Source of the DNA: Dehalococcoidia bacterium
Lineage (GTDB): Bacteria > Chloroflexota > Dehalococcoidia > Dehalococcoidales > SURF-40
Reading direction: 5' to 3'
NCBI GenBank assembly: GCA_003599745.1
Contig: QZJL01000011.1
Coordinates: forward strand, 1 to 32,632
Length of the DNA stretch: 32,632 bases
The notes beneath the pieces were generated by a model that saw only the letters and a program-made list of their open reading frames with translations, ran no database searches and was not told where the DNA came from. Position numbers and translations under genes: made by a program. Positions 22,431 through 30,542 of the stretch are shown piece after piece. Each line of letters opens with the position of its first letter. Position 1 is the stretch's first letter.

Positions 22431-23600
22431 TTAGTGTTTTTTAGTAGCAAGCCGCTTCAAGTAGTTTTTGCAGTTGCGCCTGGTCTCGGCGAGGTTGTCG
22501 CCGCCGAACTTTTCCAGTAGCGCCTGCGCCAGCACGAAGCAGGTCATCGCTTCGGAAACGACTCCGGCGCGGGGCACGATGCAAATGTCCGAGCGCTCGG
22601 TGATGGCCTCGGCGCTCTTGCCGGTGGCGAGGTCCACGGTGCGGGCGGGCTTGCCCAGCGTGGCGATGGGCTTGTGATAGACGCGCAGAACGATATCTTC
22701 GCCGTTTGAGATGCCCCCCTCGATGCCGCCCATGTGGTTTGTCCGGCGGCTAAAACCGGCCTTTCCGGGCGTGATGGCGTCCACGGTCTGCGAGCCGGTT
22801 AGCCCGGCCAGCGCACAGCCGTCGCCGATTTCGACCGCCTTCACCGAGGGAATGCTCGCGAGCGCCCCGGCCAGCGCGCCGTCAAGGCGGCGGTCGTAGT
22901 GCATGACGCTGCCCAGTCCCACCGGTACGCCGCGGGCGATGACTTCCAGCACGCCGCCCAGGGTATCCCCTTTACGGCGGGCTTCGTCAATTGCCGTCTT
23001 CATCTTTCGTGACACTTCAGGGTCGAGGCACCTTGTTTCGGGGTCGCGCTCGTATACCGCGGCCACCTCCTCAAAGCTGGGGCGGGTGTCTTCAAGCTTC
23101 ACTTTCCCGATTTGTACGGTGTGACTGGCGACCCGGATGCCGAACTCGCCGAGCAAGCGGCGGCAGACCGCCCCGGCCATCACCCGGGAAACGGTCTCTC
23201 GGGCGCTGGCGCGTTCCAGCACGTTGCGGATGTCGCCCTGGCCGTATTTCAAGGCGGCGGCGAGGTCGGCATGCCCCGGGCGGGGGCGGGTGAGCGGCTC
23301 GGCCTCGTCATCGCTTGCCTCAATCCTCATTACCGCCTGCCAGTTCTCGAAGTCGCGGTTTTGCACCACGAGGGCGATGGGACTGCCCAGCGTTCGGCCG
23401 TAGCGCGCTCCCGCCAGGATTTCACACTCGTCTTTTTCAAGCAAACCCCGCCCGCCGCGGCCGTAGTCACTGCGCCGCCGGGCGAGGTCGCGGTTGATGT
23501 CGCCGGCGCTTATGCCGAGGCCGGCCGGTATGCCTTCAATAATCACGACACAGGCCGGGCCGTGGGACTCACCGGCGGTCAGAAATCGTAACACCTTCAT
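22431..23600 (-). CDS. aroC: Chorismate synthase
   Basis: MKVLRFLTAGESHGPACVVIIEGIPAG...RPGHADLAAALKYGQGDIRNVLERASARETVSRV...GGIEGGISNGEDI. Confidence 0.98.
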   Translation of the reverse strand: MKVLRFLTAGESHGPACVVIIEGIPAGLGISAGDINRDLARRRSDYGRGGRGLLEKDECEILAGARYGRTLGSPIALVVQNRDFENWQAVMRIEASDDEAEPLTRPRPGHADLAAALKYGQGDIRNVLERASARETVSRVMAGAVCRRLLGEFGIRVASHTVQIGKVKLEDTRPSFEEVAAVYERDPETRCLDPEVSRKMKTAIDEARRKGDTLGGVLEVIARGVPVGLGSVMHYDRRLDGALAGALASIPSVKAVEIGDGCALAGLTGSQTVDAITPGKAGFSRRTNHMGGIEGGISNGEDIVLRVYHKPIATLGKPARTVDLATGKSAEAITERSDICIVPRAGVVSEAMTCFVLAQALLEKFGGDNLAETRRNCKNYLKRLATKKH

Positions 23601-24417
23601 CTCCTTTTAACGCCCGTGTCAGCGCCTGTCCCATCTGGACAAGCGGGGCGGTGTGGCCGGTGAAAAGCTCGAACTGGCGGGCGGCCTGGTAGAGGAACAT
23701 CTTGTGCCCGTAGACGACTTTACAGCCGGCTTTTTTGGCCTCAGCGAGCAGGCGGGTGGTGCGGGGGCGGTAGATGACATCGAAAACGACGAGTTTCGGG
23801 TGCAGGTAACTGGCGGGCACCGATAGTTCGTCAACTTTTGGCCACATGCCGACCGGCGTGGCGTTTGTCAGGATGTCGGCGTCGCCAATCTCCGAAAACC
23901 GGTCAAAACCGCCGGAACCTTCCGCCCCGATTCGTGCCGCTAAAGCCGCCGCTTTCGCCGGCGCGCGGCCCAGGATGACCACCCGGCTGCCCCGGTGCTT
24001 TAGAGCCAGAGCGATGGTGAGGGCGGTCGCCCCGGCGCCCAAAATTACCGTTTTTTTACCCCTTAAGGGCGTCTTTTCCGAGAGCGCCTTGAGCGCGGCG
24101 TCGTAGTCGGTGTTGTAGCCCTTCAGGTGGCCGCCACGGTTGACGATGGTGTTGATGGCGCCAATCTCCTTAGCTTCGGCGTCAAGTTCGTCAACGCAGG
24201 CCAGCGCCGTCGTCTTGTGGGGGATGGTAACGCTCATACCGGTGATGCCCAGCGTCCGCATGGCGGCGATAGCGGGCGCGGCCTCTTTTACCCGGAAGGC
24301 GAGATAAACGTAGTCCAGCCCCCGCGCCTGGTAACCCCGGTTATGCACCAGCGGGGAAAGCGAGTGCGCCACCGGGTCGCCGATGAGGCAGCAAACTCTG
24401 GTTTCGGCGTTAATCAC
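23569..24417 (-). CDS. aroE: Shikimate dehydrogenase
   Basis: CCLIGDPVAHSLSPLVHNRGYQARGLDYVYLAFRV...GMSVTIPHKTTALACVDELD...NTDYDAALKAL. GTG start at 24417 (AAAAAGGTGATTAACGCC) preferred over track start 24474. Confidence 0.96.
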   Translation of the reverse strand: MINAETRVCCLIGDPVAHSLSPLVHNRGYQARGLDYVYLAFRVKEAAPAIAAMRTLGITGMSVTIPHKTTALACVDELDAEAKEIGAINTIVNRGGHLKGYNTDYDAALKALSEKTPLRGKKTVILGAGATALTIALALKHRGSRVVILGRAPAKAAALAARIGAEGSGGFDRFSEIGDADILTNATPVGMWPKVDELSVPASYLHPKLVVFDVIYRPRTTRLLAEAKKAGCKVVYGHKMFLYQAARQFELFTGHTAPLVQMGQALTRALKGDEGVTISDRR

Positions 24418-24922
24418 CTTTTTCTCCCAGCCGCCTGATAATGGTCTCGGCCACCTGTTCGGGCGCAAGGCCATCGGTATCTACAATTATATCAGCCGCC
24501 CGCCGGTAAACCGGCTCGCGCTCTTTTAGCACAAGCGCCATATCTTCTGCCGGCGGCTTGCCGGTGAGGCTGGGGCGGGAGGCGTCGTTTTTTGTCCGCG
24601 CCAGCAGGGTTTCCAGCCTTGCCCGCAGCCAGACCAGCTTCCCGGTTTCCTTGAGCGCCCGGATATTTTCCTCACCGGTGACCGCGCCGCCGCCGGTGGC
24701 GTTGACAATGTCGTCGAGCGCGGCTACCGACCTGACTACTTCAGATTCAATTTTGCGAAAGCCCGGCCAGCCCTGGCGGGCGACGATTTCACTTACGCTC
24801 ATACCGGCTTTCCGGGTAATCATCTCGTCCATTTCGATAAAGCGCCTGCCCAGCTTTTTAGCCAGCAGCCGTCCCACCGCGGTCTTGCCGCTGCCCCGCA
24901 TCCCTATCAGCACGATGTTCAT
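24410..24922 (-). CDS. aroK: Shikimate kinase
   Basis: MNIVLIGMRGSGKTAVGRLLAKKLGRRFIEMDEMI...NATGGGAV. Confidence 0.97.
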   Translation of the reverse strand: MNIVLIGMRGSGKTAVGRLLAKKLGRRFIEMDEMITRKAGMSVSEIVARQGWPGFRKIESEVVRSVAALDDIVNATGGGAVTGEENIRALKETGKLVWLRARLETLLARTKNDASRPSLTGKPPAEDMALVLKEREPVYRRAADIIVDTDGLAPEQVAETIIRRLGEKGD

Positions 24923-24931
24923 GCCGGGGTC

Positions 24932-26218
24932 TCAGACTTCCTCGTATTTTGCGCCGACCTTTGCCAGGTCGCGGAAGAAGCCGGGATATGACTTGCCGAC
25001 GGCTTCAGCGCCGCTGATGACCGTTTCTCCCTCGGCAAAGAGCGCCGCTACGGCCAGGCTCATAACCAGGCGGTGGTCGTTGTGGGACTCGACCCCGGCG
25101 CCCCTGACCCCGCCGCCGGTAATCAGCATGGTGTTTTCGGTGACCTCAACCTCCGCTCCCATTTTGCGCAGTTCCAGGGCGGTGTGGTTGATGCGGTCGG
25201 TCTCTTTATAAATCAGGTGGCCGATGTTCCTGATAAGCGTTTTGCCGCTGGCAAAAGCGGCGACCACCGCCAGCGGCTGGACGATGTCCGGGTAGTCGCC
25301 CATGTCCTGGGTGGTAGCGGCCAAGGGGTTACGGCGGCTTGCCGAAATGCCTTCTTTGCCGAAGTCAATCTCGCAGCCCATTTGGGCGAGAATGTCAAGA
25401 AAGTGGCGGTCGCCCTGCACCGAACGGGAGTTAAGGCCGCTGACCGTCACCGTTACCCCGCCGATGGCGCCCATAGCGAAGAAATAGGCCGCCGACGAGT
25501 AGTCGCCCTCGATATCATACTCGCGCCCCCGGTAAGTCTCTCCGGCGGTGACCACGAAATGCTCGTAGTTGATGTTGCCGACCTCGCCGCCGAAGCGGCG
25601 CATAATATCAATGGTAACATCAACGTAGGGTTTGGAGAGCAGTTCGCCGCTGATGTTCAGGCGCACGTTGCGCCGGGCGTAGGGCGCGGCCATGAGCAGG
25701 CCGCTCACGTGCTGGGAGGTTATCAGGCCGCTCACCACCACCTCGCCGCCCAGCAGCGTCCCGCCGTGGATTTCGATGGGGGGGAAGCCGTCCCGGTTGA
25801 TGGAAGCCGCCCTGATGCCCAGCGCCTTGAGCGCCACCAGCAGGTCGCTCACCGGGCGCTGGTAGAGCCGGGGCTCGCCTTCGAAGACCACTCGTCCCGG
25901 TGTCAAGGCGGCCAGCGGGGCGACCATCCTTACCGTGCTGCCCGAGTTACCGACGAAAATTGTCTCTCTGCCCGGCTGGACGCTGAACTTGCCGTCCCGC
26001 CCCTCGATTTTCAGCGTGCTGCCGTTAGCCCGTATGGTGGTGCCCAGGGTGCGTAGGGCTTCGGCGGTGTAACGGGTGTCGTCGGCGTCGAGGTAGTTGG
26101 TGAGTACCGTCTCGCCCTCGGCCAGCGCGCCCAGGATGAGCGCGCGGTGGGTGTAGCTCTTCGAGGGCGGGGCGGTAACCTCGCCTTTCACCGCCCCGGG
26201 CGTTATCTTTACCTTCAA
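24932..26218 (-). CDS. aroA: 3-phosphoshikimate 1-carboxyvinyltransferase (EPSP synthase)
   Basis: VTAPPSKSYTHRALILGALAEGETVLTNYLDADDT...FVGNSGSTVRMVAPLAAL...ESHNDHRLVMSLAVAAL. Confidence 0.98.
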   Translation of the reverse strand: MKVKITPGAVKGEVTAPPSKSYTHRALILGALAEGETVLTNYLDADDTRYTAEALRTLGTTIRANGSTLKIEGRDGKFSVQPGRETIFVGNSGSTVRMVAPLAALTPGRVVFEGEPRLYQRPVSDLLVALKALGIRAASINRDGFPPIEIHGGTLLGGEVVVSGLITSQHVSGLLMAAPYARRNVRLNISGELLSKPYVDVTIDIMRRFGGEVGNINYEHFVVTAGETYRGREYDIEGDYSSAAYFFAMGAIGGVTVTVSGLNSRSVQGDRHFLDILAQMGCEIDFGKEGISASRRNPLAATTQDMGDYPDIVQPLAVVAAFASGKTLIRNIGHLIYKETDRINHTALELRKMGAEVEVTENTMLITGGGVRGAGVESHNDHRLVMSLAVAALFAEGETVISGAEAVGKSYPGFFRDLAKVGAKYEEV

Positions 26219-26219
26219 T

Positions 26220-26660
26220 TTACGCAGGTTCCCCCAGGTATCTTACCAGCGCCTCGAGGCCGAGACGGTAGCTTTCGGCCTTAAATCCCGAAACCTGTCC
26301 CACCGCCACCGGGGCGATGACCGAGTGGCGGCGAAAACCCTCCCTTGCCCCGATGTTGGAAAGGTGCACTTCCACCACCGGCTTGCCCGAGTCTGCTAGG
26401 GCGTCGCGCAGCGAGTAACTGTAATGCGTCAGCCCCCCGGGATTGATGAGTATGCCGGCTGCGGTGTGACCCGATTGCTGGATGAAGTCAATGATGGCGC
26501 CTTCGTGGTTAGACTGGAAAAAGACCAGTTCGCAGCCGAGCTTCCGGGCATCGTTTTTGAGGGTGTCCTCAATCTGCTTGAGAGTCGCCGTGCCGTAAAG
26601 GGCGGGTTCTCTCTCTCCCAGGCGGTTCAGGTTGGGGCCGCTTATGACCAGAATCTTCAT
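26220..26660 (-). CDS. aroQ: 3-dehydroquinate dehydratase, type II
   Basis: ILVISGPNLNRLGEREPALYGTATL...FFQSNHEGAIIDFIQQ...LINPGGLTHYSYSLRDAL...EVHLSNIGAREGFRRHSV. Confidence 0.98.
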   Translation of the reverse strand: MKILVISGPNLNRLGEREPALYGTATLKQIEDTLKNDARKLGCELVFFQSNHEGAIIDFIQQSGHTAAGILINPGGLTHYSYSLRDALADSGKPVVEVHLSNIGAREGFRRHSVIAPVAVGQVSGFKAESYRLGLEALVRYLGEPA

Positions 26661-27754
26661 CGGCAGACCTCCGCCAGTACCTGGCTTACCAGCGCTTGTG
26701 GTACTTTACAATTTACCACGCCGCGCCCAATTTCCGCCAGCAACACCCACCGGGGCTCGCCGCCGCTCGTTTTTTTGTCGAACTTGAGATTGGCGAGCAG
26801 CTCCCCGGGCGTTACCTGCGGGGCGTGGACGGGTAGTCCGAACTTTTTGAGAACTGCCTCTATCCTCGGTGTGGCGCTGGCCGAAAGCATGCCCAGCCGG
26901 GCGCTGATGCGACTGGCGACCACCATGCCGAAGCTGACCGCCGCCCCGTGCTGGCCTTCGAGGTTGCTGGCGGCTTCCAGCGCATGCCCGATGGTATGCC
27001 CGAAGTTGAGGATGGCCCGCGCCCCGGTGCGCTCGGTCTCGTCGGCCATCACCACCTTCGCTTTCAGGGCGGCGCAGCGCTCGATGATGGGTATCAGCTC
27101 CGCCGCTTTGAAATCGGCGTCTTTTTTATGCTCCAGACGCTCGAAGAGGTCTTTATCCATCGCCAGCCCGTATTTTAAAATTTCCGCCAGGCCGTTTCTC
27201 ATCTCCTGTGGCGGCAGCGACTTCAAAAAATCAACGTCGGCGATGATGGTCTTCGGCTGGTAGAAGCTGCCGACCATGTTCTTTTTACCTCCGAAGTTGA
27301 CGCCCACCTTGCCGCCGATGGCGCTGTCCACCTGGGCGAGCAGCGTGGTCGGTACCTGGATATAGTCAATGCCCCGCAGGTAGCTGGCCGCCAGATACCC
27401 ACCGGCGTCACCCGGCACGCCCCCGCCGAGGATGACCAAGAGAGCGCTGCGGTCAACCCCGTTTTCCATAAGAAATGTATAACCTTCGGCCAGGCTCTCC
27501 GGCGACTTGGCGATTTCGCCCACCGGAAGAGAAAATCTCAAGACTTTCTTGCCGCTCTGCGCGAGGATGGCGGCGACCGGTTCCCCGTAAAGGCGGTCGG
27601 TAGTCTCGTCGGTAACCAGCACCAGACTGGAGTAGGCTTTTAAGTCAACGAAATCGCCGATGCGGCCGGCAAGGCCGCGCCCGAGGTAGACCGACCACGC
27701 CCGCGTTACGGTTATCTTGAACGGTATTTCCAGGCGTTTTTCCGGCTGACTCAA
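26657..27754 (-). CDS. aroB: 3-dehydroquinate synthase
   Basis: LGGGVPGDAGGYLAASYLRGIDYIQVPTTLLAQVDSAIGGKVGVNFGGKKNMVGSFYQP. TTG start at 27754 with GGAGG upstream (GGAGGAAATAGCCTTGAGTCAG) preferred over track start 27829, which overlaps aroF. Confidence 0.96.
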   Translation of the reverse strand: MSQPEKRLEIPFKITVTRAWSVYLGRGLAGRIGDFVDLKAYSSLVLVTDETTDRLYGEPVAAILAQSGKKVLRFSLPVGEIAKSPESLAEGYTFLMENGVDRSALLVILGGGVPGDAGGYLAASYLRGIDYIQVPTTLLAQVDSAIGGKVGVNFGGKKNMVGSFYQPKTIIADVDFLKSLPPQEMRNGLAEILKYGLAMDKDLFERLEHKKDADFKAAELIPIIERCAALKAKVVMADETERTGARAILNFGHTIGHALEAASNLEGQHGAAVSFGMVVASRISARLGMLSASATPRIEAVLKKFGLPVHAPQVTPGELLANLKFDKKTSGGEPRWVLLAEIGRGVVNCKVPQALVSQVLAEVCR

Positions 27755-27773
27755 GGCTATTTCCTCCGGTTTT

Positions 27774-28841
27774 TTATTTGCCCGCCGGTTTTCGGTGGAT
27801 TTCTTTGTAAATGCGCCGGCAGGCGTCAATGATGTCTTTCAGTTCGTCGGGCGTCACCGACTGCGGCCCGTCCACCAATGCTTCCGCCGGGTTGTGGTGC
27901 GTCTCGATCATCAGGCCGCTGGCGCCGGCGGCGACGGCGGCGCAGCTCATGCTGAAGATGAGGTCGCGCCGCCCGGTGGCGTGGCTGGGGTCAACGATGA
28001 TGGGCAGGTAGGTCTCCTTCTCGATGGCCGGCACCGAGGCCAGGTCGAGGGTGTAGCGGGTGAAGCTCTTGCCCTTGCCGATGGGGATGATGCCACGCTC
28101 GCAGAGGATAATGTTGCGGTTGCCCTCGACGGCGATGTATTCGGCAAAAGAGAGGAACTCCTCGATGCCGGCGCCGAAGTGCCGCTTGAAGACCACCGGC
28201 TTGCCCGTCCGTCCGACCTTGCCCAGCAGGTCCTGGTCGTACATGTTGCGCGCGCCTATCTGGATGATGTCAACGTACTCGGCGATGAGGTCAATCTGGC
28301 TCTCGCCGCGCGCCTCGGTGATGACCGGCATCTCGTATTTATCGCCGGCCTCGCGCAGCCAGCTGAGCGCCTCCTGCGCTTCTTCCTGGCTGCCTGAGCC
28401 AAGCCCCTGGAAAGAGTAGGCGCTGGAGCGCGGCTTGAAGATGCCGCCCCGCAGAATCTGGGCGCCGGCTTTTTTAGCGCCTTCGGCGATTTTCAATAGT
28501 TGCCCTTTATTCTCCACGGCGCAGGGCCCGGCGATGAAGACCGGCTCGCCACCGCCGATTTTGACATCACGTACTTCGATGACGCCGTGTTTTGCCGGGT
28601 CTTCCGAAAGGCGGCTGAACTCCCGGCTGATGAGCTTGTAGGGCGTCTCAATGCGGAGAGTTTCTTTGACGCCGGGGAGCGCCTCGAAATGGCTGAAGTC
28701 TATTTTTCGCTCGTCGCCAACGACGCCGATGACGCTGCGGAAGTCGCCCCTTGAGAGGTCGGCTTTCAGCCGCAGGCGTTTTATCTCGTTGATGACGTTC
28801 TCGATTTGCTCTTTGGTTGCCTCGCTGCTCATGATAATCAC
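27774..28841 (-). CDS. aroF: 3-deoxy-7-phosphoheptulonate synthase (DAHP synthase, type I-beta with N-terminal ferredoxin-like domain)
   Basis: FIAGPCAVENKGQLLKIAEGAKKAGAQILRGGIFKPRSSAYSFQGLG...IIVDPSHATGRRDLI; GTG start with AGGAGG five nt upstream. Confidence 0.97.
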   Translation of the reverse strand: MIIMSSEATKEQIENVINEIKRLRLKADLSRGDFRSVIGVVGDERKIDFSHFEALPGVKETLRIETPYKLISREFSRLSEDPAKHGVIEVRDVKIGGGEPVFIAGPCAVENKGQLLKIAEGAKKAGAQILRGGIFKPRSSAYSFQGLGSGSQEEAQEALSWLREAGDKYEMPVITEARGESQIDLIAEYVDIIQIGARNMYDQDLLGKVGRTGKPVVFKRHFGAGIEEFLSFAEYIAVEGNRNIILCERGIIPIGKGKSFTRYTLDLASVPAIEKETYLPIIVDPSHATGRRDLIFSMSCAAVAAGASGLMIETHHNPAEALVDGPQSVTPDELKDIIDACRRIYKEIHRKPAGK

Positions 28842-28852
28842 GTTTGCCTCCT

Positions 28853-28884
28853 AAAAAATGAAGAACCCTCCGCGCCGGGAGGGT
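28853..28884 (-). terminator. Rho-independent terminator/attenuator of the aro operon leader
   Basis: Minus strand ACCCTCC-CGGCGC-GGAGGGT (28884-28865) followed by TCTTCATTTTTT (28864-28853), between leader-peptide stop and aroF SD. Confidence 0.85.
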
Positions 28885-28919
28885 CATCTTTTGCTCTATC
28901 GCTGATTAGCTTTTGCGGT

Positions 28920-29006
28920 CTATCGCGTTTCGGCCAAACTCCTCCCAGCGCATCCGGTGCGCCCGGTAAAGTAGTAGCCGTAATACCACTGGGAGGCCAA
29001 AAGCAT
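28920..29006 (-). CDS. aro operon leader peptide MLLASQWYYGYYFTGRTGCAGRSLAETR*
   Basis: 28 codons plus TAG; SD-like GAGG upstream of ATG; WYYGYYF cluster; located between a strong promoter and an attenuator hairpin upstream of aroF. Confidence 0.9.
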   Translation of the reverse strand: MLLASQWYYGYYFTGRTGCAGRSLAETR

Positions 29007-29022
29007 TTTCTACCTCGCCCGC

Positions 29023-29051
29023 ATAATATCATGGTTAGGGGAGAGTGTCAA
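29023..29051 (-). promoter_or_regulatory. sigma70 promoter of the aro operon (TTGACA-17-TATTAT)
   Basis: Consensus -35 TTGACA (29046-29051), 17-nt spacer, -10 TATTAT (29023-29028). Confidence 0.88.
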
Positions 29052-29075: not shown

Positions 29076-30542
29076 TCAAGGAGCTATACTATTCTTAACC
29101 GCATTGTAAACTGGTTGAGGAGGATGCGTTGTAAACCGAGTAGGAAAATAAACGATGGATTCGGCTTTTGTTGGTTTCTTTCGTAAGCCAAATAGTCCTT
29201 CTAGGTTAGGAGTTTGAAGAAAAACGTTCTCAGCTCCCAGAAGCGTTTTCAAACTGGCTATTGCGGTCGCAGTGGCAGGATTTTCTGGGTCTTCATCTAT
29301 CAGCGCATACGTTGGTATGTGAAATAACCCCAACACTTTTGCTATTGGTTCGATGTTGGGCAAGCCCCCACAATCGATGATAGAAACGCAATGTTTATCT
29401 AAGTCTAGCCCCAAACTGGTGAGAGCGGATACGCAGGCGACCTTGTCTGGGTACCCTTCTGTGAGCACGACGTGATTAGCGAAGAAGACTTCGTTAATCT
29501 CCTCATCAAATTTGGAAGCAGCTGAAACTTGGCTCTGAAGGGTTGCGTACTGCCCGAAACCTGAACAAACGGTTGTGTCCCCGGTTTCCCTTTTTACAAG
29601 GCGAACACTGTTAAAGTCAGATATATCGACGAAGCATCTGTCGTGCGTGGTGTAAATTATCTGAACATTGTTTTGGGATAGGTGTTTTAGAATTTTGTGA
29701 AAATTGCGGCAACCATGCGGATGAAGATAAAGCTCTGGCTCTTCGATAGCCAAAACAAGCGGTTTAGCAACGATTTGACCGTACGCTCTAGCTATAGCAA
29801 CTGCTAAAGCACTTTGAGTGCCAGCACCCATATGCTCTGCATCAAACTCTAAAGATGCAGAAGAGTCACTCAAAAAAGGTCTGAGATTCTTGATGGTATC
29901 GATAGGGTCAACGAGTTGCATCTTGAGGTGTAGTTCAAGGCCAGTCTGCTCTTTAACACAATCTCTCAATATGGTCTCTAAAGTCTGGATATCTGCGGCA
30001 ACATTTGAATCATATGCACTCTTTATACCTTGTATGAAAGCAGTTTTCTTAGCTGGGTCAATACTCTTCTCAATATATCTGAGCAATTTGCCATACAACG
30101 TCCATTGGCTAGGGCGGACTTGTTCAGATGCTTCCCTGTCCAATCCCAGGTACATCAAGGTTACTTCATCTTTCATGTCTGTCGAAACACGGATTTCTTT
30201 TTGGCTAGGGTAAGTCAATACTCTTCCAAGTCGGTCCACAGCGAAATAGCCAAAATCACTACCGTCATAGGTCATTTGAAAACCCCATACATTGGGGTTG
30301 GTAGCCAATTGCGAATCAAACATTATTTGGAGGAAAATCGGAGAAGTTTTGTCATATTTATAAAAGTCATGGTCACTAAACGAGCGCGCAGAAGGATAAG
30401 ATAACCCCAATAGAAGGTCAAGCGCTTTCATCAGGTTAGATTTTCCGGCGTTATTGGGCCCAATGAGACTTGTGATAGCGCCGAAGTCAAGATTGACTTC
30501 TTCAATGGAACGGAAGTGTTTTACAGTGAGTTTTTTTATCAT
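29076..30542 (-). CDS. OLD-family ATP-dependent endonuclease (AAA ATPase plus TOPRIM)
   Basis: MIKKLTVKHFRSIEEVNLDFGAITSLIGPNNAGKSNLMKAL Walker A; LVLAIEEPELYLHP Walker B; TOPRIM-like VVLTEGYPDKVACVSAL...YALIDEDPEN. Visibly lower GC than neighbours. Confidence 0.9.
   Translation of the reverse strand: MIKKLTVKHFRSIEEVNLDFGAITSLIGPNNAGKSNLMKALDLLLGLSYPSARSFSDHDFYKYDKTSPIFLQIMFDSQLATNPNVWGFQMTYDGSDFGYFAVDRLGRVLTYPSQKEIRVSTDMKDEVTLMYLGLDREASEQVRPSQWTLYGKLLRYIEKSIDPAKKTAFIQGIKSAYDSNVAADIQTLETILRDCVKEQTGLELHLKMQLVDPIDTIKNLRPFLSDSSASLEFDAEHMGAGTQSALAVAIARAYGQIVAKPLVLAIEEPELYLHPHGCRNFHKILKHLSQNNVQIIYTTHDRCFVDISDFNSVRLVKRETGDTTVCSGFGQYATLQSQVSAASKFDEEINEVFFANHVVLTEGYPDKVACVSALTSLGLDLDKHCVSIIDCGGLPNIEPIAKVLGLFHIPTYALIDEDPENPATATAIASLKTLLGAENVFLQTPNLEGLFGLRKKPTKAESIVYFPTRFTTHPPQPVYNAVKNSIAP

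Follow-up and report, generated by a model that had tools for sequence, protein, structure and literature searches.

The analysis of the aro leader found in the window (i.e., the whole stretch of 32,632 nucleotides of Dehalococcoidia DNA analyzed in this work) supports, with a high degree of confidence, the idea that this region controls the chorismate operon by ribosome-mediated (leader-peptide) transcription attenuation. On the minus strand, a gene coding for an ATPase-like protein ends at 29076 and aroF starts at 28841; the leader lies between the two and directly precedes the genes of an operon (aroF-B-Q-A-K-E-C) embedding the entire route to chorismate, from which tyrosine, phenylalanine, and tryptophan are made. 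From the codons of the leader peptide we infer that the attenuator would sense mainly charged tRNA-Tyr and, in addition, tRNA-Phe and tRNA-Trp. The elements of the leader, all of which are seen directly, and the genes following it are listed below.

29023..29051, minus strand: sigma-70-type promoter TTGACA-17-TATTAT (29051-29046 and 29028-29023), with 11 of 12 consensus matches
28920..29006, minus strand: leader peptide ORF MLLASQWYYGYYFTGRTGCAGRSLAETR, 28 residues, with ATG at 29006 and TAG at 28922-28920
28989..28996, minus strand: outer segment 1 CCTCCCAG, auxiliary complement of segment 2
28968..28988, minus strand: control codons TGG TAT TAC GGC TAC TAC TTT (WYYGYYF)
28948..28962, minus strand: local 1:2 hairpin, GCGCA (28962-28958) - CCGGA - TGCGC (28952-28948), conserved
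28941..28951, minus strand: segment 2 GCGCTGGGAGG, 5' arm of the antiterminator, overlapping the 3' arm of the local hairpin
28872..28884, minus strand: segment 3 ACCCTCCCGGCGC, of which 28882-28872 pairs with segment 2 and 28884-28878 with segment 4
28865..28871, minus strand: segment 4 GGAGGGT, 3' arm of the terminator
28853..28864, minus strand: T-rich tail TCTTCATTTTTT of the intrinsic terminator
28847..28852, minus strand: aroF Shine-Dalgarno sequence AGGAGG (28852-28847), directly after the T-rich tail of the terminator
27774..28841, minus strand: aroF, coding for a DAHP synthase with an N-terminal ferredoxin-like domain, GTG start
22431..27829, minus strand: aroB, aroQ (type II dehydroquinase), aroA, shikimate kinase gene, aroE, and aroC

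The promoter is the sole promoter-like site within 501 bases and, on the basis of its position, transcription is expected to start at about 29016. The control codons (four for Tyr, one for Phe, and one for Trp) form a run within a short ORF whose translation is predicted and whose ATG is preceded by a Shine-Dalgarno-like GAGGT, and the intrinsic terminator lies between this ORF and aroF. The set at which the first-pass annotation had the ribosome stall (WYYGYYF) thus includes Trp and Phe, most of its codons being for Tyr. The gene directly upstream of the leader (29076-30542, minus strand) codes for an AAA/OLD-like ATPase, whose best NCBIfam matches are the retron Eco8 effector and MADS3, both far under the respective cut-offs.

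The same annotation had proposed four segments with mutually exclusive pairings. All of them were found on the minus strand where it had placed them, that is, CCTCCCAG at 28996-28989, CTGGGAGG at 28948-28941, ACCCTCCCGG starting from 28884, and GGAGGGT at 28871-28865 followed by the T-rich tail, and the pairings 1:2, 2:3, and 3:4 do comprise 8 bp, 8 bp (one G-U), and 7 bp. The 8 bp assigned to helix 2:3 are too few, however, since GCGCTGGGAGG (28951-28941) and CCTCCCGGCGC (28882-28872) form 11 consecutive pairs, one of which is G-U, with a duplex energy of about -27 kcal/mol. Such a four-segment arrangement was found at one place only in the 32.6 kb of the window, both strands being scanned; when the 165-nt leader was shuffled 3000 times with its dinucleotides preserved, no shuffle matched it at the same thresholds, and two did so at much looser ones.

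A DAHP synthase of the aroF type was detected in the majority of the relatives belonging to this order, and also in public genomes assigned to Dehalococcoidales, Dehalococcoidia, and Chloroflexi. Several of the public records have the very same leaders as the relatives, and this puts the window within or close to the order Dehalococcoidales. Upstream of this gene we retrieved 47 orthologous leaders from the relatives, which are mostly metagenome assemblies; hence, 48 leaders are available including that of the window. Each of the 48 exhibits a short ORF with start and stop codons, a block rich in Tyr/Phe(/Trp) directly before the segment 2 hairpin, and a terminator after it. The blocks of the orthologs (e.g., YYAYFTF, YYYYYF, and YYTYYVF) are dominated by Tyr, the best 8-residue windows of the 48 leaders containing 178 Y, 87 F, and 13 W. 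A TTGAC motif plus a -10 promoter element is located upstream of 38 of the 48 leaders. The distance between the GGGAGG of segment 2 and the stop codon, which is usually 8 nt, reaches 18 nt in the window, which is therefore an outlier.

Three helices are conserved across the leaders, i.e., the local 1:2 hairpin, the antiterminator 2:3, and the terminator 3:4, and for the first two covariation is directly observed. In the local hairpin, 89.5% of the cells are paired, and 16 double-change cells were counted versus 4.6 in the shuffles (0/500 shuffles), with compensatory examples such as GCGCA/UGCGC, GCACA/UGUGC, and GCGGC/GCCGC; in helix 2:3, 90.9% of the cells are paired, with 26 double-change cells versus 7.4 (0/500 shuffles). 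These shuffle-based values are somewhat inflated by the kinship of the sequences, most of which come from different families. RNAalifold, receiving the alignment as its sole input, also returned helix 2:3 unprompted. Since MAFFT had set the row of the window one column off register (A2), a second test of 2:3 was performed with a pair-independent anchoring; in the part of the helix that involves the terminator loop, 126 Watson-Crick pairs were observed versus 96 +/- 5.8 when segments 2 and 3 were swapped between species (maximum 117 in 2000 swaps). The loop is unpaired in 3:4, and thus only the antiterminator accounts for its covariation with segment 2. The trp-type logic advanced by the first-pass annotation, for which a covariation check on orthologous leaders had been suggested, is therefore strongly supported by 47 such leaders and by their compensatory changes.

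The same data bear on the idea that the terminator might be a constitutive one belonging to the upstream gene, with the peptide being simply a small protein. Indeed, the intrinsic terminator is clear and the upstream gene ends at 29076; however, a near-consensus promoter separates this gene from the leader, the terminator is located inside the leader of the aro operon, and a plain terminator does not need the covariation between its loop and segment 2. We consider this explanation extremely improbable.

As for segment 1, the picture emerging from the orthologs differs from the one first proposed, according to which the 1:2 helix is formed by CCTCCCAG (28996-28989) and CTGGGAGG (28948-28941) and is masked when the ribosome is on the Trp/Tyr codons. 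The complement is real in the window, where it is a perfect 8-bp duplex (-21 kcal/mol), and an equivalent pairing reaches a shuffle p<0.05 in 20 of 48 leaders, versus about two expected. Nevertheless, such a complement is absent in several orthologs (L015, L019, L022, L024, L030, L031, L041, L042, and L065), whereas nearly all the leaders have a hairpin immediately before segment 2, and the unconstrained minimum-energy fold of the full window leader takes this local hairpin, together with the terminator, rather than outer segment 1. Therefore, segment 2 has its conserved partner in GCGCA (28962-28958), an element that follows shortly after the control codons and is missing from the first-pass annotation, and CCTCCCAG was rejected as a general 1:2 partner. 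The model in its exact original form appears unlikely; outer segment 1 is most likely an auxiliary extension that is stronger in the window than in most leaders.

By analogy with the established attenuation of trp, phe, and his genes, stalling, termination, and induction upon starvation might proceed as follows. RNA polymerase would start near 29016, and a ribosome would begin the leader peptide. If charged aromatic tRNAs were short, the ribosome would stall in WYYGYYF, and its leading edge would mask the 5' arm of the local hairpin, which starts 6 nt past the last aromatic codon; early stalls would also mask the auxiliary segment 1. A ribosome covers about 15 nt on either side of the P site; with the last Phe codon (28970-28968) in the A site it would extend over approximately 28988-28958, so that at the last codons (Y4 and F) 28962-28958 would be covered and 28996-28989 no longer fully. 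Segment 2 (28951-28941), being free, would then pair with segment 3 (28882-28872), no terminator would form, and aroFBQAKEC would be transcribed. With plentiful aromatic tRNAs the ribosome would pass; the local hairpin closing in its wake would then sequester segment 2 or, in most orthologs, the ribosome standing at the stop codon would mask it, so that 3:4 would form and transcription would end at about 28853.

The folding of alternative structures, a check also suggested by the first-pass annotation, fits the proposed attenuator. In the full window leader, a ribosome stalled on the control codons (at W, Y2, Y3, Y4, or F) is predicted to disrupt the 1:2 helix and to cause the switch to 2:3, which is exclusive with the terminator. 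In the nascent RNA, before segment 4 is made, every one of the 48 leaders favors 2:3 for one or more aromatic-codon stalls, versus six of 48 with the ribosome at the stop codon, the latter number being low because the stop usually lies 8 nt after GGGAGG. In complete transcripts at equilibrium, no more than 20 of the 48 leaders, including that of the window, shift toward 2:3 upon a stall, and therefore the switch must be kinetic. When no ribosome is present, the nascent RNA favors 2:3 in 34 leaders out of 48, the window among them; on the basis of the folding model, transcription might thus continue past a leader that is not translated if the local hairpin, the first helix to form, did not last. 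For the window, the probability of 2:3 with the ribosome at the stop codon is 0.83; the stop lies 18 nt beyond segment 2, too far for a terminating ribosome to mask that segment. Outer segment 1 may compensate for this distant stop codon, and the window may rely more than other leaders on the re-forming of 1:2.

To explore the distribution of this RNA, a covariance model (R1) containing 2:3 was built from 29 leaders; hence, the 2:3 pairing of the paralogous leaders found with it is not independent evidence. R1 hits occur in 41 of 294 genomes of the class and, among 301 genomes of the phylum, every hit but one marginal lies in the class. In the genome of the window R1 matches two places, the aro leader and G000:C10:25726-25826 (L163, L200; E = 4.7e-8). 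At the latter, the leader MGNNKFIFTRRTLGALGGRIAD belongs to another instance of the attenuator, in which the control codons are for Phe, and is followed by genes for an AMP-dependent acyl-CoA ligase, LivH, a LivM-like permease, a solute-binding protein, LivF, and a PaaK-like ligase (the last scoring below the curated PaaK cut-off, and the Liv names other than LivH being assigned by eye). Overall, 17 R1 hits precede this ligase/Liv operon, with Phe-rich blocks such as FNFFFFFFF and FSFFFSFF, and two relatives assembled in a single contig (G156:C1 and G265:C1) carry both the aro and the ligase/Liv attenuators. Tyr is present in the block of 48/48 aro leaders versus 6/17 ligase/Liv leaders (Fisher p = 1.4e-8).

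This exchange of Tyr for Phe codons on the same RNA scaffold is relevant to another possible explanation, i.e., that the leader is a metabolite riboswitch or a T-box directly sensing aromatics or uncharged tRNA, the short ORF being incidental. Riboswitches and T-boxes also use terminator/antiterminator arrangements; however, besides the difference in Tyr presence, the ORF frame and the aromatic block are kept in all 48 leaders, no conserved aptamer accompanies the three helices in this short leader (about 165 nt), and no Rfam family matches it at gathering score or at E values up to 10, thresholds at which the Rfam scan returned only tRNAs. Thus, this explanation seems very improbable.

Single R1 hits lie in front of other genes, too. 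In L166 (G031:C9), the leader MLIYTTAHYYYYYYYYAFTGRIGTLGG, with eight consecutive Tyr codons, precedes a hisC-type aminotransferase gene (440-1543), which suggests that the enzyme might serve tyrosine synthesis; similarly, the Tyr-rich leader GYIYYYPG preceding a TRAP transporter (DctP/Q/M) in L169 (G035:C41) suggests a putative importer of tyrosine or aryl acids. Moreover, a Phe-codon leader precedes two CaiB-type CoA-transferases and a 2-hydroxyacyl-CoA dehydratase-like gene set (L165/L206, G031:C21), a Tyr-codon leader (DYIYAVRT) precedes a molybdopterin oxidoreductase (L168, G004:C21), and a single R1 hit, with the block SFIFTFTG, lies before pheS-pheT (L190, one genome). The latter genome is the only one in which the model detected a pheS leader, 30 other pheS loci showing no convincing Phe leader; pheS was not found in the assembly of the window's genome, which is an incomplete one. 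No convincing Trp-rich leader peptide was found upstream of trpE at 30 loci of the relatives (L213-L242); therefore, the control of Trp synthesis appears to be of another kind. Across the paralogous leaders, codons and genes correspond as attenuation predicts. We can tentatively speculate that in Dehalococcoidia an interchangeable RNA scaffold defines an aromatic regulon, in which the chorismate operon has Tyr/Phe/Trp leaders, the ligase/Liv/PaaK-like genes have Phe leaders, and sporadic Phe or Tyr leaders occur elsewhere, and that the Phe operon imports and activates aryl acids (e.g., phenylacetate) as an alternative route to Phe; this wider picture is somewhat less probable than its alternatives taken together, and a part played by the ligase/Liv operon in supplying Phe is a speculation prompted by its control codons.

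Leader-peptide attenuation is best known in Proteobacteria, Actinobacteria, and some Firmicutes. In the Escherichia coli trp, pheA, and pheST attenuators, a protector hairpin, an antiterminator, and a terminator are mutually exclusive, and the control codons correspond to the pathway product. The leaders described here share with them the three exclusive helices and the codons for the pathway product; unlike them, they have a conserved segment 1 lying 3' of the control codons without overlapping them, and one leader contains codons for three end products and governs the common chorismate pathway. According to the description given in PMC11802643, ribosome-mediated attenuation occurs at the aroR leader of the Corynebacterium glutamicum aroF operon (Neshat et al. 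2014), where an aromatic-codon leader peptide is likewise located directly upstream of the DAHP synthase gene; however, the AroR peptide contains Phe-Tyr-Phe, responds to Phe and not to Tyr, in contrast with the Tyr-rich leader of the window, and belongs to another phylum. Setting aroR beside the window by description, we regard an independent origin of the two RNA elements as likely. The uORFC-13-1 motif upstream of aroF in Acholeplasma, with 24 representatives from Acholeplasma and environmental sequences only, also has a uORF with Phe codon(s), a terminator before aroF, and a predicted promoter, but its codons are for Phe only (PMC8632094). A survey of 2010 stated that leader-peptide attenuation was known only in Proteobacteria and Actinobacteria before its own case in Firmicutes (PMC2965389), and no aro leader appears in the main text of a screen describing a Dehalococcoides rdhA motif (PMC11109978). 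Our search of the open literature for leader-peptide attenuation in Chloroflexi/Chloroflexota or Dehalococcoid retrieved no report. The type of mechanism is a textbook one, and the Dehalococcoidia leader family is, provisionally, undescribed in the open literature searched.

The attenuator represents a conserved device of a class whose members include organohalide-respiring bacteria, and its covariation is sufficient for a search model. In addition, the control codons show which amino acid is answered to, and they thus provide functional clues for uncharacterized operons, such as the Phe-controlled ligase/transporter genes.
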